Source: Marivita sp. | Lineage (GTDB): Bacteria; Pseudomonadota; Alphaproteobacteria; Rhodobacterales; Rhodobacteraceae | Assembly: GCF_020055675.1 (NCBI RefSeq) | Contig: NZ_JAIPUS010000001.1 | Span: forward strand, 186,001-250,000 | Reading direction: 5' to 3' | Length of the DNA: 64,000 nucleotides | Shown: in pieces, positions 43,243-45,783 of the stretch | Numbering within the stretch: position 1 is the first letter of the stretch | How the letters are laid out: every line of letters starts with the position of its first letter | The notes under the pieces: generated by a model | Told to the model about the DNA's origin: nothing | What the model saw: the letters and a program-made list of their open reading frames with translations, nothing else | Databases searched by the model: none | Made by a program: the position numbers and the translations under genes

Positions 43243-45783
43243 ATGTCTCGTTTTACCGCTCCGATTGCTGAACAGATCTGGGATATGAAATACCGGCTGA
43301 AAGAGGCGGACGGAACGCCTCGGGATGCGACGGTTCAGGATACCTGGCGGCGGATCGCGCGCAGCCTGGCAGAGGTCGAGGCCCAACCGCAGGTCTGGGA
43401 AGAGAAGTTCTACACGGCGCTGGAGGATTTCAGATACCTGCCGGCGGGGCGGATCACGGCCGGCGCGGGCACGGCGCGGTCGGTGACGTTGTTCAACTGC
43501 TTCGTCATGGGCACGATCCCCGACAGCATGGGCGGCATCTTCGAGATGCTGAAAGAGGCTGCGCTGACGATGCAGCAGGGCGGCGGCATCGGCTATGATT
43601 TCAGCACGATCCGGCCCAAGGGTGCGGATGTGAAAGGCGTGGCGGCAGACGCCTCTGGCCCGCTGTCCTTCATGGATGTGTGGGACGCGATGTGCCGGAC
43701 GATCATGTCGGCAGGATCACGCCGGGGGGCGATGATGGCGACGATGCGTTGCGACCACCCGGATATCGAGGATTTCATCGGCGCCAAATCCGATGCCGCG
43801 CGGCTGCGCATGTTCAACCTGTCGGTTCTGGTGACGGATGATTTCATGGAGGCGGTCAAGGCGGACGGTGATTGGGACCTCGTCTTCGAGGACAAGGTCT
43901 ATCGCACCGTGCAGGCGCGCGACCTGTGGAACCGGATCATGCGCGCCACCTATGATTATGCCGAACCCGGTGTGATTTTCATTGACCGGATCAACCAGGC
44001 GAACAACCTGAACTATTGCGAGACCATCGCGGCGACGAACCCTTGCGGCGAACAGCCCTTGCCGCCCTATGGTGCGTGCCTTCTGGGCTCGATCAACATG
44101 GCGCGGCTGGTGACCGATCCGTTCGAGGAGGCGGCGGCGCTGGATGTTACGGCGCTGAACGATCTGGTCGCGACGGCGGTGCGGATGATGGACAACGTGG
44201 TCGACGCCTCGCGCTTTCCGCTCGAGGCGCAGCGCGCGGAAGCACAGGCGAAACGCCGGATCGGTCTGGGCGTCACGGGGCTGGCCGATGCGCTCTTGAT
44301 GCTGGGCCTGCGCTATGGCTCCGACGCGGCGGCGGCACAGACCGAGGCGTGGCTACACGCGATTGCGCGTGCGGCGTATCTCGCATCGGTGGAACTGGCC
44401 AAGGAAAAAGGCGCGTTTCCGCTCTTTGATGCCGACAAGTACCTGGCCTCCGGCACCATGCAGATGATGGATGATGACGTGCGCGACGCGATCCGCGAAC
44501 ATGGCATCCGCAACGCGTTGCTCACGTCGATAGCACCCACGGGAACGATCTCGCTCTACGCCGGCAACGTGTCCTCGGGGATCGAGCCTGTTTTCGCCTA
44601 TGCCTACACCCGCAAGGTCCTGCAGAAGGATGGCAGCCGGACCGAGGAAGAGGTGGTCGATTACGTGGTCCAGATGTGGCGCGAGAAATTCGGCGACCGT
44701 GACTTGCCCGAGTATTTCGTGAACGCCCAGACGCTCGCCCCGCTGGAGCACGTCAAGATGCAGTCAGCGGCGCAGAAATGGGTGGACAGTTCGATCTCCA
44801 AGACGATCAACTGCCCCGAGGACATCTCGTTCGAGGCCTTCAAGGACGTCTACATGCAGGCCTACGAGACCGGCTGCAAAGGCTGCACCACCTATCGCCC
44901 TAACGATGTGACGGGGTCGGTGCTGAGCGTGGCGGAGGAAACGCCCGACTCGTTCGGTGCGAGAGTGAAATCACGTCTCAAGGCGAAGGGGCTGACCCAA
45001 AAGGCATTTGCCGCCGCGATTGATGTTGCTGAACCGGTCGTCTCGAAGGTTGTGGAAGGCGATCAAAAATCACTTCCAAATATCGAGAAGGCAGCAGAAG
45101 TTCTTGGAGTTTCAACCGGTTATCTACAATTCGGCGAATCCCAATCGTCCGGCGAAGCCGGGCAGCCCCCGACCGCCCCCATGGGCGGGGGCTTCCCCCC
45201 CGCCCGCGGTCAGGGTCTGCCCGACGAGGAGGGCGGGACGCAATTCGCAGGCGAAGTTGTCTACATGTCCGAGCCGCTCGACCGGCCGCAGACGCTGGAA
45301 GGGGCGACCTACAAGCTCAAGTGGCCCGACAGCGAGCATGCCATATACCTGACGATCAACGACATCATCGTCGGCGGGCATCGCAGACCCTTCGAGGTGT
45401 TCATCAACTCCAAGAACATGGAGCATTTCGCCTGGACCGTGGCCCTGACGCGCATGATCTCTGCCGTGTTCCGGCGCGGCGGCGACGTGTCCTTCGTGGT
45501 CGAGGAACTCAAGGCGGTCTTCGATCCGCGTGGCGGCGCCTGGGTGCAGGGAAAGTACATCCCGTCGATCCTGGCTGCCATCGGTGGCGTGATCGAGAAA
45601 CATTTGATCGCGATCGGCTTTCTTGCCGGTGAGGGTCTGGGCCTGAAATCCGACCCGCAAGCCGAGGTCGTGAACCTGGATAGCCCGCGTGGCAAGGCCT
45701 GTTCCTCTTGCGGGCAATACGACATGCGCATGGTCGAAGGCTGCATGACCTGCGGATCTTGCGGCTACAGCAAATGCGGCTGA
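43243..45783 (+). CDS. nrdJ: Adenosylcobalamin-dependent (class II) ribonucleotide reductase with inserted XRE-type HTH domain
   Basis: Makes deoxyribonucleotides using B12, 846 residues. The class II core is clear: PAGRITAGAG, LFNCFVMG (redox Cys), NPCGEQPLPPYGACLLGSINM (catalytic Cys/Glu) and LTSIAPTGTISLYAGNVSSG. After the catalytic barrel, residues 571-631 are a helix-turn-helix domain (FGARVKSRLKAKGLTQKAFA, AAIDVAEPVVSKVVEG, EKAAEVLGVSTGYLQFG), then a Pro/Gly linker. The TSCPD domain follows (~667-795, YKLKWPDSEHAIYLTINDI). The tail ends CSSCGQYDMRMVEGCMTCGSCG, the redox or zinc cysteines. The HTH stretch is not expected in NrdJ. Start is ATG 43243, after AAAGGGA. Confidence 0.96.
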   Translation: MSRFTAPIAEQIWDMKYRLKEADGTPRDATVQDTWRRIARSLAEVEAQPQVWEEKFYTALEDFRYLPAGRITAGAGTARSVTLFNCFVMGTIPDSMGGIFEMLKEAALTMQQGGGIGYDFSTIRPKGADVKGVAADASGPLSFMDVWDAMCRTIMSAGSRRGAMMATMRCDHPDIEDFIGAKSDAARLRMFNLSVLVTDDFMEAVKADGDWDLVFEDKVYRTVQARDLWNRIMRATYDYAEPGVIFIDRINQANNLNYCETIAATNPCGEQPLPPYGACLLGSINMARLVTDPFEEAAALDVTALNDLVATAVRMMDNVVDASRFPLEAQRAEAQAKRRIGLGVTGLADALLMLGLRYGSDAAAAQTEAWLHAIARAAYLASVELAKEKGAFPLFDADKYLASGTMQMMDDDVRDAIREHGIRNALLTSIAPTGTISLYAGNVSSGIEPVFAYAYTRKVLQKDGSRTEEEVVDYVVQMWREKFGDRDLPEYFVNAQTLAPLEHVKMQSAAQKWVDSSISKTINCPEDISFEAFKDVYMQAYETGCKGCTTYRPNDVTGSVLSVAEETPDSFGARVKSRLKAKGLTQKAFAAAIDVAEPVVSKVVEGDQKSLPNIEKAAEVLGVSTGYLQFGESQSSGEAGQPPTAPMGGGFPPARGQGLPDEEGGTQFAGEVVYMSEPLDRPQTLEGATYKLKWPDSEHAIYLTINDIIVGGHRRPFEVFINSKNMEHFAWTVALTRMISAVFRRGGDVSFVVEELKAVFDPRGGAWVQGKYIPSILAAIGGVIEKHLIAIGFLAGEGLGLKSDPQAEVVNLDSPRGKACSSCGQYDMRMVEGCMTCGSCGYSKCG

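Follow-up and report, generated by a model that had tools for sequence, protein, structure and literature searches.

In Pseudomonas, the class II (B12-dependent) ribonucleotide reductase is split into two proteins, NrdJa and NrdJb. According to the available excerpt of the published account (PMC4520616), NrdJb, which binds close to the NrdJa end, contributes the redox cysteines, and a dimer of pairs, (NrdJa-NrdJb)2, is suggested as the active form. Here we analyzed a 64,000-nucleotide stretch of a Marivita sp. genome (family Rhodobacteraceae; NCBI RefSeq assembly GCF_020055675.1, contig NZ_JAIPUS010000001.1, positions 186,001 to 250,000; hereafter the window), whose nrdJ gene encodes an enzyme of this class with an internal helix-turn-helix (HTH) domain. 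Window NrdJ and the split enzyme have the barrel, the TSCPD domain and the cysteine tail in common, and, as far as that excerpt describes it, the split point is the HTH site, so that the position of the HTH matches the NrdJa/NrdJb border between catalytic and redox part. Window NrdJ itself is not split: it is one frame and one chain with an exchangeable HTH, whereas the excerpt mentions no DNA-binding domain. Comparison with relatives shows the linker between barrel and TSCPD domain in Rhodobacteraceae NrdJ to be a fixed site for phage-repressor-type (XRE, 434/P22-like) domains, and shows many gains, losses or replacements of the HTH, each time as a whole and without regard to the remainder of the protein.

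Other described systems are alike in part. Phage CI/C2-type repressors (434, P22, phi80), which join an HTH to an S24 peptidase, have an HTH of similar fold and length; that of NrdJ, however, comes without S24 and lies inside an enzyme, outside a phage gene cluster, and not in a stand-alone gene. The WLLFG-like border that ends several NrdJ HTHs looks by eye like what we take to be the end of the 434 repressor N-terminal domain. The trigger enzymes PutA, BirA and NadR unite catalysis and an HTH in one chain, as NrdJ does, but in these the HTH stays with the family, whereas in NrdJ unrelated HTHs take its place from one sister species to another. Type I restriction systems exchange the target-recognition domains of HsdS, likewise a variable recognition module at a fixed place in a conserved scaffold; in NrdJ, however, what varies is a repressor-type HTH, with a metabolic enzyme as its scaffold. 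In the Stl-dUTPase pair, as the available excerpt of its description has it, an HTH repressor is also coupled to a nucleotide enzyme, but non-covalently, and dUTPase relieves repression. Among open-licence PMC papers, preprints not included, we found no publication on an HTH-bearing ribonucleotide reductase, and in the same literature none on enzyme-fused phage repressors of this kind. To our knowledge, no other metabolic enzyme swaps an entire DNA-binding domain for unrelated ones at a set position from one sister species to the next, and no example came up in that literature; we regard the repeated replacement of such a domain at one site of a core enzyme as new in kind.

An HTH of the phage repressor type within NrdJ

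The open reading frame (ORF) at 43243-45783 on the + strand runs through 846 codons without interruption. In a profile search, its product scored 588.1 bits against TIGR02504 (curated cutoff 399.95), which places it in class II; its B12-dependent activity is predicted. The barrel, the TSCPD domain and the C-terminal cysteines were all identified by Pfam and alignment, with C820, C823, C834, C837, C840 and C845 invariant among 32 aligned NrdJs. The gene is laid out as follows.

43243..45783, + strand: nrdJ, encoding an 846-residue class II (B12-dependent) ribonucleotide reductase that contains the HTH (TIGR02504)
43495..44895, + strand: catalytic barrel, residues 85-551 (PF02867, E 9.6e-130)
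44896..44952, + strand: 5' linker RPNDVTGSVLSVAEETPDS, modeled with low confidence (residues 556-567 with a predicted local distance difference test, pLDDT, < 50)
44953..45138, + strand: inserted XRE/Cro-C1 HTH, residues 571-632 (Pfam match 44968-45126), from profiles and predicted fold
45149..45222, + strand: G+C-rich stretch, translated within the 3' linker and similar to an intergenic segment at another place in this genome
45310..45606, + strand: TSCPD domain, residues 690-788 (PF12637, E 8.2e-11)
45697..45780, + strand: cysteine-rich C-terminal tail, from alignment, presumed to be the redox arm by analogy with NrdJb as described in the excerpt (PMC4520616)

The initial annotation, a model's reading of the DNA, had described a complete Cro/C1-type HTH in frame between barrel and TSCPD domain and had proposed a domain search and a structure prediction as checks; both were run, and both bear it out. 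HTH_3 (PF01381) matched residues 576-628 with 35.3 bits (cutoff 23, E 1.2e-8), between the Pfam matches of the barrel and TSCPD domains, and E was 2.3e-10 when the 72-residue segment was searched alone. In an AlphaFold2 model built on the alignment of 32 NrdJs, five helices occupied residues 571-630 as a block of pLDDT 77-90, and the flanking stretches 556-567 and 633-674 stayed below 50; the HTH is thus predicted to be a folded bead between flexible, disordered linkers. The mean pLDDT of the whole model was 66.8, the barrel being partly poorly modeled. Folded alone, the HTH reached pLDDT 85, and among solved structures its model was closest to phage 434 Cro (template modeling score 0.92, root-mean-square deviation 0.9), with the P22 c2 and 434 repressors also among the top matches, so that the predicted fold is of the five-helix 434 type. 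In PHROGs, the segment best matched phage transcriptional repressors and regulators. Pfam found no S24 match in the 846 residues, TSCPD and not S24 coming after the HTH, and no phage genes were seen by eye among the ORFs of 41.5-48.5 kb. A PF01381 search of the window's genome gave 13 matches, nrdJ being the only one in a frame of more than 500 amino acids.

The HTH core has a G+C content of 51.5% and the barrel one of 62.6%, with 56.6% in the lowest barrel window of equal size, in line with the earlier view of an AT-rich segment acquired by insertion; HTH DNA was also lower in G+C than the barrel in 37 of 40 cases. Comparison with relatives puts the insertion point just after SV(A/S)EE, at about 44940. 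L190 and the HTH-less L092 are 94.5% and 93.8% identical on the two sides, their alignment breaking at the linker and resuming directly, and L007 against L034 is likewise a clean insertion. Because 42 different NrdJ genes carry an HTH at the same site (counting L012, with a frame break after its HTH), an assembly artefact is very unlikely, and we regard an artefact of assembly or annotation as a negligible alternative.

Distribution of the insert

To estimate prevalence, we took a single genome from each genus of the family and searched these with the junction between barrel and TSCPD domain from an NrdJ that lacks the HTH; a scan of genome contigs that ranked HTH-bearing genes first was kept out of the count. 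The junction was found in 115 of 129 family genomes (including G167, where one side only was seen), and it was interrupted by an insert of HTH size in at least 20 of them. All 20 inserts, 19 fetched and that of the window, read as Cro/C1-type HTHs, and in G158 (L203) two different HTHs stand in tandem within one linker. In a class-wide sample of 133 genomes, 52 non-family genomes matched, and an insert of HTH size was present in none of the 48 readable on both sides, the four one-sided ones being excluded. The initial annotation had held that the same segment in most class II reductases would remove the novelty; in our samples the insert is a minority feature of one family. Within genera, HTH-bearing NrdJs were found in 3 of 17 genomes of the window's genus and in 1 of 5 of the genus of G071.

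HTH_3 was recognized in 38 of 41 HTH cores at E <= 0.01 (Pfam; 19/21 and 19/20), the phage regulator phrog_8 was matched by 20 of 21 cores, and four of ten weak-looking cores reached a Pfam cutoff on retesting. A profile of the 41 cores matched 41/41 HTH-bearing NrdJ rows (39 of them by construction) and 0/77 HTH-less rows. The same profile matched none of 55 viral NrdJ frames, 52 of which are readable past the insertion point, and among the best 20 of 89 plasmid records the near-complete Rhodobacteraceae matches are HTH-less by length. One viral contig (L155) encodes an NrdJ in which this linker holds a long insert without a match to the HTH profile. L294 (G259) appears by its frame length to be a further HTH-bearing NrdJ.

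As far as they were read, 19 of the 20 inserts continue in frame into TSCPD; G025 is broken after the HTH, and the contig of G159 ends inside TSCPD. The nrdJ of G025 (L188, L012) carries an HTH of the window's class and a linker frameshift that puts TSCPD in another frame; the enzyme may be split, the gene may be broken, or the sequence may contain an error. L244 (G224) is an apparent nrdJ 3' fragment with HTH, linker and out-of-frame TSCPD, and with no barrel upstream in the stretch read.

Exchange of the HTH independently of the barrel

We compared HTH and barrel identities across 39 genes (741 pairs, L012 excluded) and found them uncorrelated (Spearman rho 0.02, p 0.56). The median identity was 25% for HTH cores (global alignments) and 83% for the barrel parts (last 440 residues before the linker). 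In the window's genus, the barrels are 94-97% identical and the HTHs 24-29%. The most similar barrels (L006/L007, 97%, same genus) belong to genes whose HTHs are 24% alike, and the most similar HTHs (L049/L052, 71%) to genes whose barrels are 79% alike.

We also built a tree of 119 NrdJs with linker and HTH left out (quick LG+G4 search, five long end branches), in which L012 is represented by its barrel half only and which includes L223 and L224, outside the 41-core comparisons. The HTHs were grouped by eye from pairwise identities into classes A-M, which are labels and not named families. On this tree, HTH presence needs at least 24 changes, 15 of them forced by starred branches; the tree does not separate gain from loss and its single joins are unsure, and the identity correlation is independent of it. 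Taken over all 14 states, the tree requires 38 changes, against a mean of 41.3 after shuffling (2/200 as low). Classes A, B and C, with 8 rows each, need 8 changes each, of which 7, 6 and 7 are forced by starred branches. Sister genes carry unrelated HTH classes or no HTH, and starred sisters differ in class in two cases, L045 (B) and L191 (F), and L040 (C) and L047 (B). Taken together, the HTH behaves like an exchangeable cassette whose nearest likeness is the DNA-binding half of a phage repressor. This diversity is a larger finding than the single insertion and is invisible from one sequence.

In 14 of 15 pairs the HTH exceeded the barrel in synonymous difference, often to saturation, so that the domains were probably apart before they entered these nrdJ genes. 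The ratio of nonsynonymous to synonymous substitution (dN/dS) was 0.11-0.25 in the 6 of 16 pairs in which it could be computed, and this may reflect life before capture.

These data bear on the suggestion in the initial annotation that the insert is a tolerated passenger, that is, that a tolerant linker captures HTH pieces and carries them without use. The split of class II enzymes between catalytic and redox parts, as given in the excerpt (PMC4520616), fits such tolerance, as do the phage NrdJs with other long linkers and the absence of the HTH from 77 of the 119 tree rows. Random capture, however, should bring in other domains, and all 20 family inserts read as one fold; nearly all continue in frame, repeated replacement needs a driver, and the dN/dS speaks against an idle passenger unless it dates from before capture. 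Weakened by this, the passenger is retained as a rival that we consider unlikely.

Two further roles, autoregulation and localization to replication sites, were suggested there as well. An HTH that lets NrdJ control its own promoter or other cellular genes, as a trigger enzyme, has precedents in the gene-regulating, DNA-binding enzymes PutA, BirA and NadR, and the upstream region of the window nrdJ is more diverged than those of its sisters. Yet a single genus holds unrelated HTH classes (three HTHs 24-29% alike), the HTH is missing from most of the NrdJs sampled, and upstream of the HTH-bearing L007 the DNA is, by eye, much like that of the HTH-less L011 and L013; autoregulation is thus not supported, and we consider a regulator quite unlikely. 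Localization to replication sites would predict a conserved specificity, which HTHs only about 25% identical do not suggest. An alignment of 16 upstream regions, that of L012 from another genus and those of 15 genes in the window's genus (with L001, the window itself, and L007 both HTH-bearing), showed no HTH-linked operator on inspection by eye rather than by an operator search. Many rows of the window's genus have TTATCCACA upstream of nrdJ, degenerate in the window, which we take to be DnaA-box-like.

Linkers and flanks

The Pro/Gly-rich linker DNA at 45149-45222 is 85-91% identical, in two pieces, to an intergenic stretch of the same genome (C14:2888-2990), and the DNA fold of 45130-45250 has a z of -2.93. 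Linkers like this G+C-rich stretch also occur in L036, L012/L188 and L244, and L051/L202 have a Gly-Glu repeat run in the linker after the HTH.

By pattern match, a 3' flank ending in PHG or similar is found in 33 of 41 HTH-bearing and 28 of 77 HTH-less genes. Such sharing would fit transfer of the HTH together with its flank by homologous recombination, with deletion scars. It could even mean that HTH and 3' flank spread among nrdJ alleles by such recombination for their own sake or by chance, which the barrel-less 3' fragment of G224 and the recurrence of the G+C-rich stretch in four linkers would also suit. No nuclease, recombinase or common target sequence was noticed, however, and the HTHs differ too much at synonymous sites to have spread recently among the genes sampled, so that we consider a self-spreading element distinctly improbable.

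Possible role and source of the HTHs

Only repressor-type HTHs occupy the site, and they are repeatedly replaced by unrelated ones, which is the pattern of changing targets. The natural changing targets of repressor-type domains are the operators of phages and satellites, and this is why we favor constitutive binding to mobile-element operators. A dimeric NrdJ would, like a dimeric repressor, display a pair of HTHs; lacking the S24 domain by which such repressors are inactivated, they would not be switched off and would form a constitutive, non-inducible DNA-binding module. This module would bind the DNA of mobile elements (temperate phages, satellites) and silence their early promoters, and HTH turnover would follow changing operators. 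In a variant, binding of DNA or a partner would also gate the neighboring redox arm. That dimeric NrdJ carries constitutive repressor-type DNA-binding HTHs aimed at mobile elements is a tentative reading, to which we give somewhat less than an even chance. The fuller version is possible but somewhat unlikely: NrdJ as an anti-mobile-element scaffold with interchangeable, non-inducible HTHs, sometimes in tandem, swapped in an arms race with temperate phages, in which binding may gate the redox arm and so tie the supply of deoxynucleoside triphosphates (dNTPs) to infection.

We also looked for relatives of the HTHs. Free-standing ones in the family include S24 (LexA-like) repressors (L184, L213 and L217, Pfam-confirmed) and small XRE proteins; those in phages include phi80 cI, the RcapNL repressor and S24 repressors, all less than 60% identical, and one class B core had no phage match. 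Across 198 genera, the nearest relatives of class A are HTHs in NrdJ-sized frames (41-66%; others 28-37%). The nearest relative is 58% identical in NrdJ against 45% free-standing for class C, and 61% against 48% for class B. Searches with L007, whose near sisters lack the insert, turned up nothing close among 295 genera, phages, viral contigs and plasmids. The donors are unsampled; repeated capture from phages and a pool that passes from one nrdJ gene to another are equally possible.

Several points weigh against constitutive operator binding by exchanged phage-type HTHs. No free-standing copy close enough to be a donor was found in searches of family genomes and phages: single queries against family genomes gave free-standing relatives of no more than 48% identity, and comparison of all cores with the fetched matches brought the best to 52% (L241). 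Classes A, B and C are closer to other NrdJ HTHs than to the free-standing ones found, so the pool may be NrdJ's own and not that of phages. The insert was not seen in 95 of the 115 sampled genera (one side only in G167). The HTH-bearing rows group to some extent on the tree (24 changes against a shuffled mean of 34.6, 0/500 as low), and class G is partly clustered (2 changes for 3 rows), so not all gains are independent. Three cores miss HTH_3 at E 0.01, and six of the ten retested (L041, L051, L053, L193, L198 and L203b) reach no Pfam cutoff, three of these being from the 20 (G088, G138, G156) and one more being the second of the two HTHs in G158. The dimer is taken by analogy from another enzyme, and DNA binding, target operator and phage effect are putative. 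In PADLOC, NrdJ matched no core gene of a known anti-phage defence system; three models matched, all over the HTH alone, the best being PDC-M69A (E 3.7e-8). Finally, some NrdJ HTHs are acidic, with a net charge down to -5.

This acidity would suit another role, in which the HTH binds proteins of mobile elements (anti-repressors, Cro-like partners, other repressors) and titrates them or couples dNTP synthesis to them, a mirror of Stl-dUTPase. The Stl repressor of staphylococcal islands does bind the nucleotide enzyme dUTPase, according to the available excerpt of that work. No partner is known for NrdJ, however, and the charge of its cores does not differ from that of free-standing HTHs, so that we hold such a decoy or docking site to be improbable. 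We had also considered charge as a sign of lost DNA binding, and dropped it because 41 NrdJ cores and 20 hand-picked free-standing ones did not differ (p 0.80).

If the HTHs bind phage operators, they would represent a new form of immunity on a core enzyme, and past infections could be read from the set of HTHs. Should they not bind DNA, another force must favor repressor-type HTHs at this site. In either case, these genes are a natural series of in-frame domain swaps beside the redox arm of a ribonucleotide reductase, in culturable marine bacteria. The carrier family consists mostly of marine bacteria.

Minor observations at the locus were as follows. An Rfam scan of 42.8-46.0 kb gave one sub-threshold chance match. 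A second NrdJ-like match lies in the same genome at C14:85176-87578, in a 1254-amino-acid frame and 30-44% identical in pieces; the genome may thus have two such enzymes.

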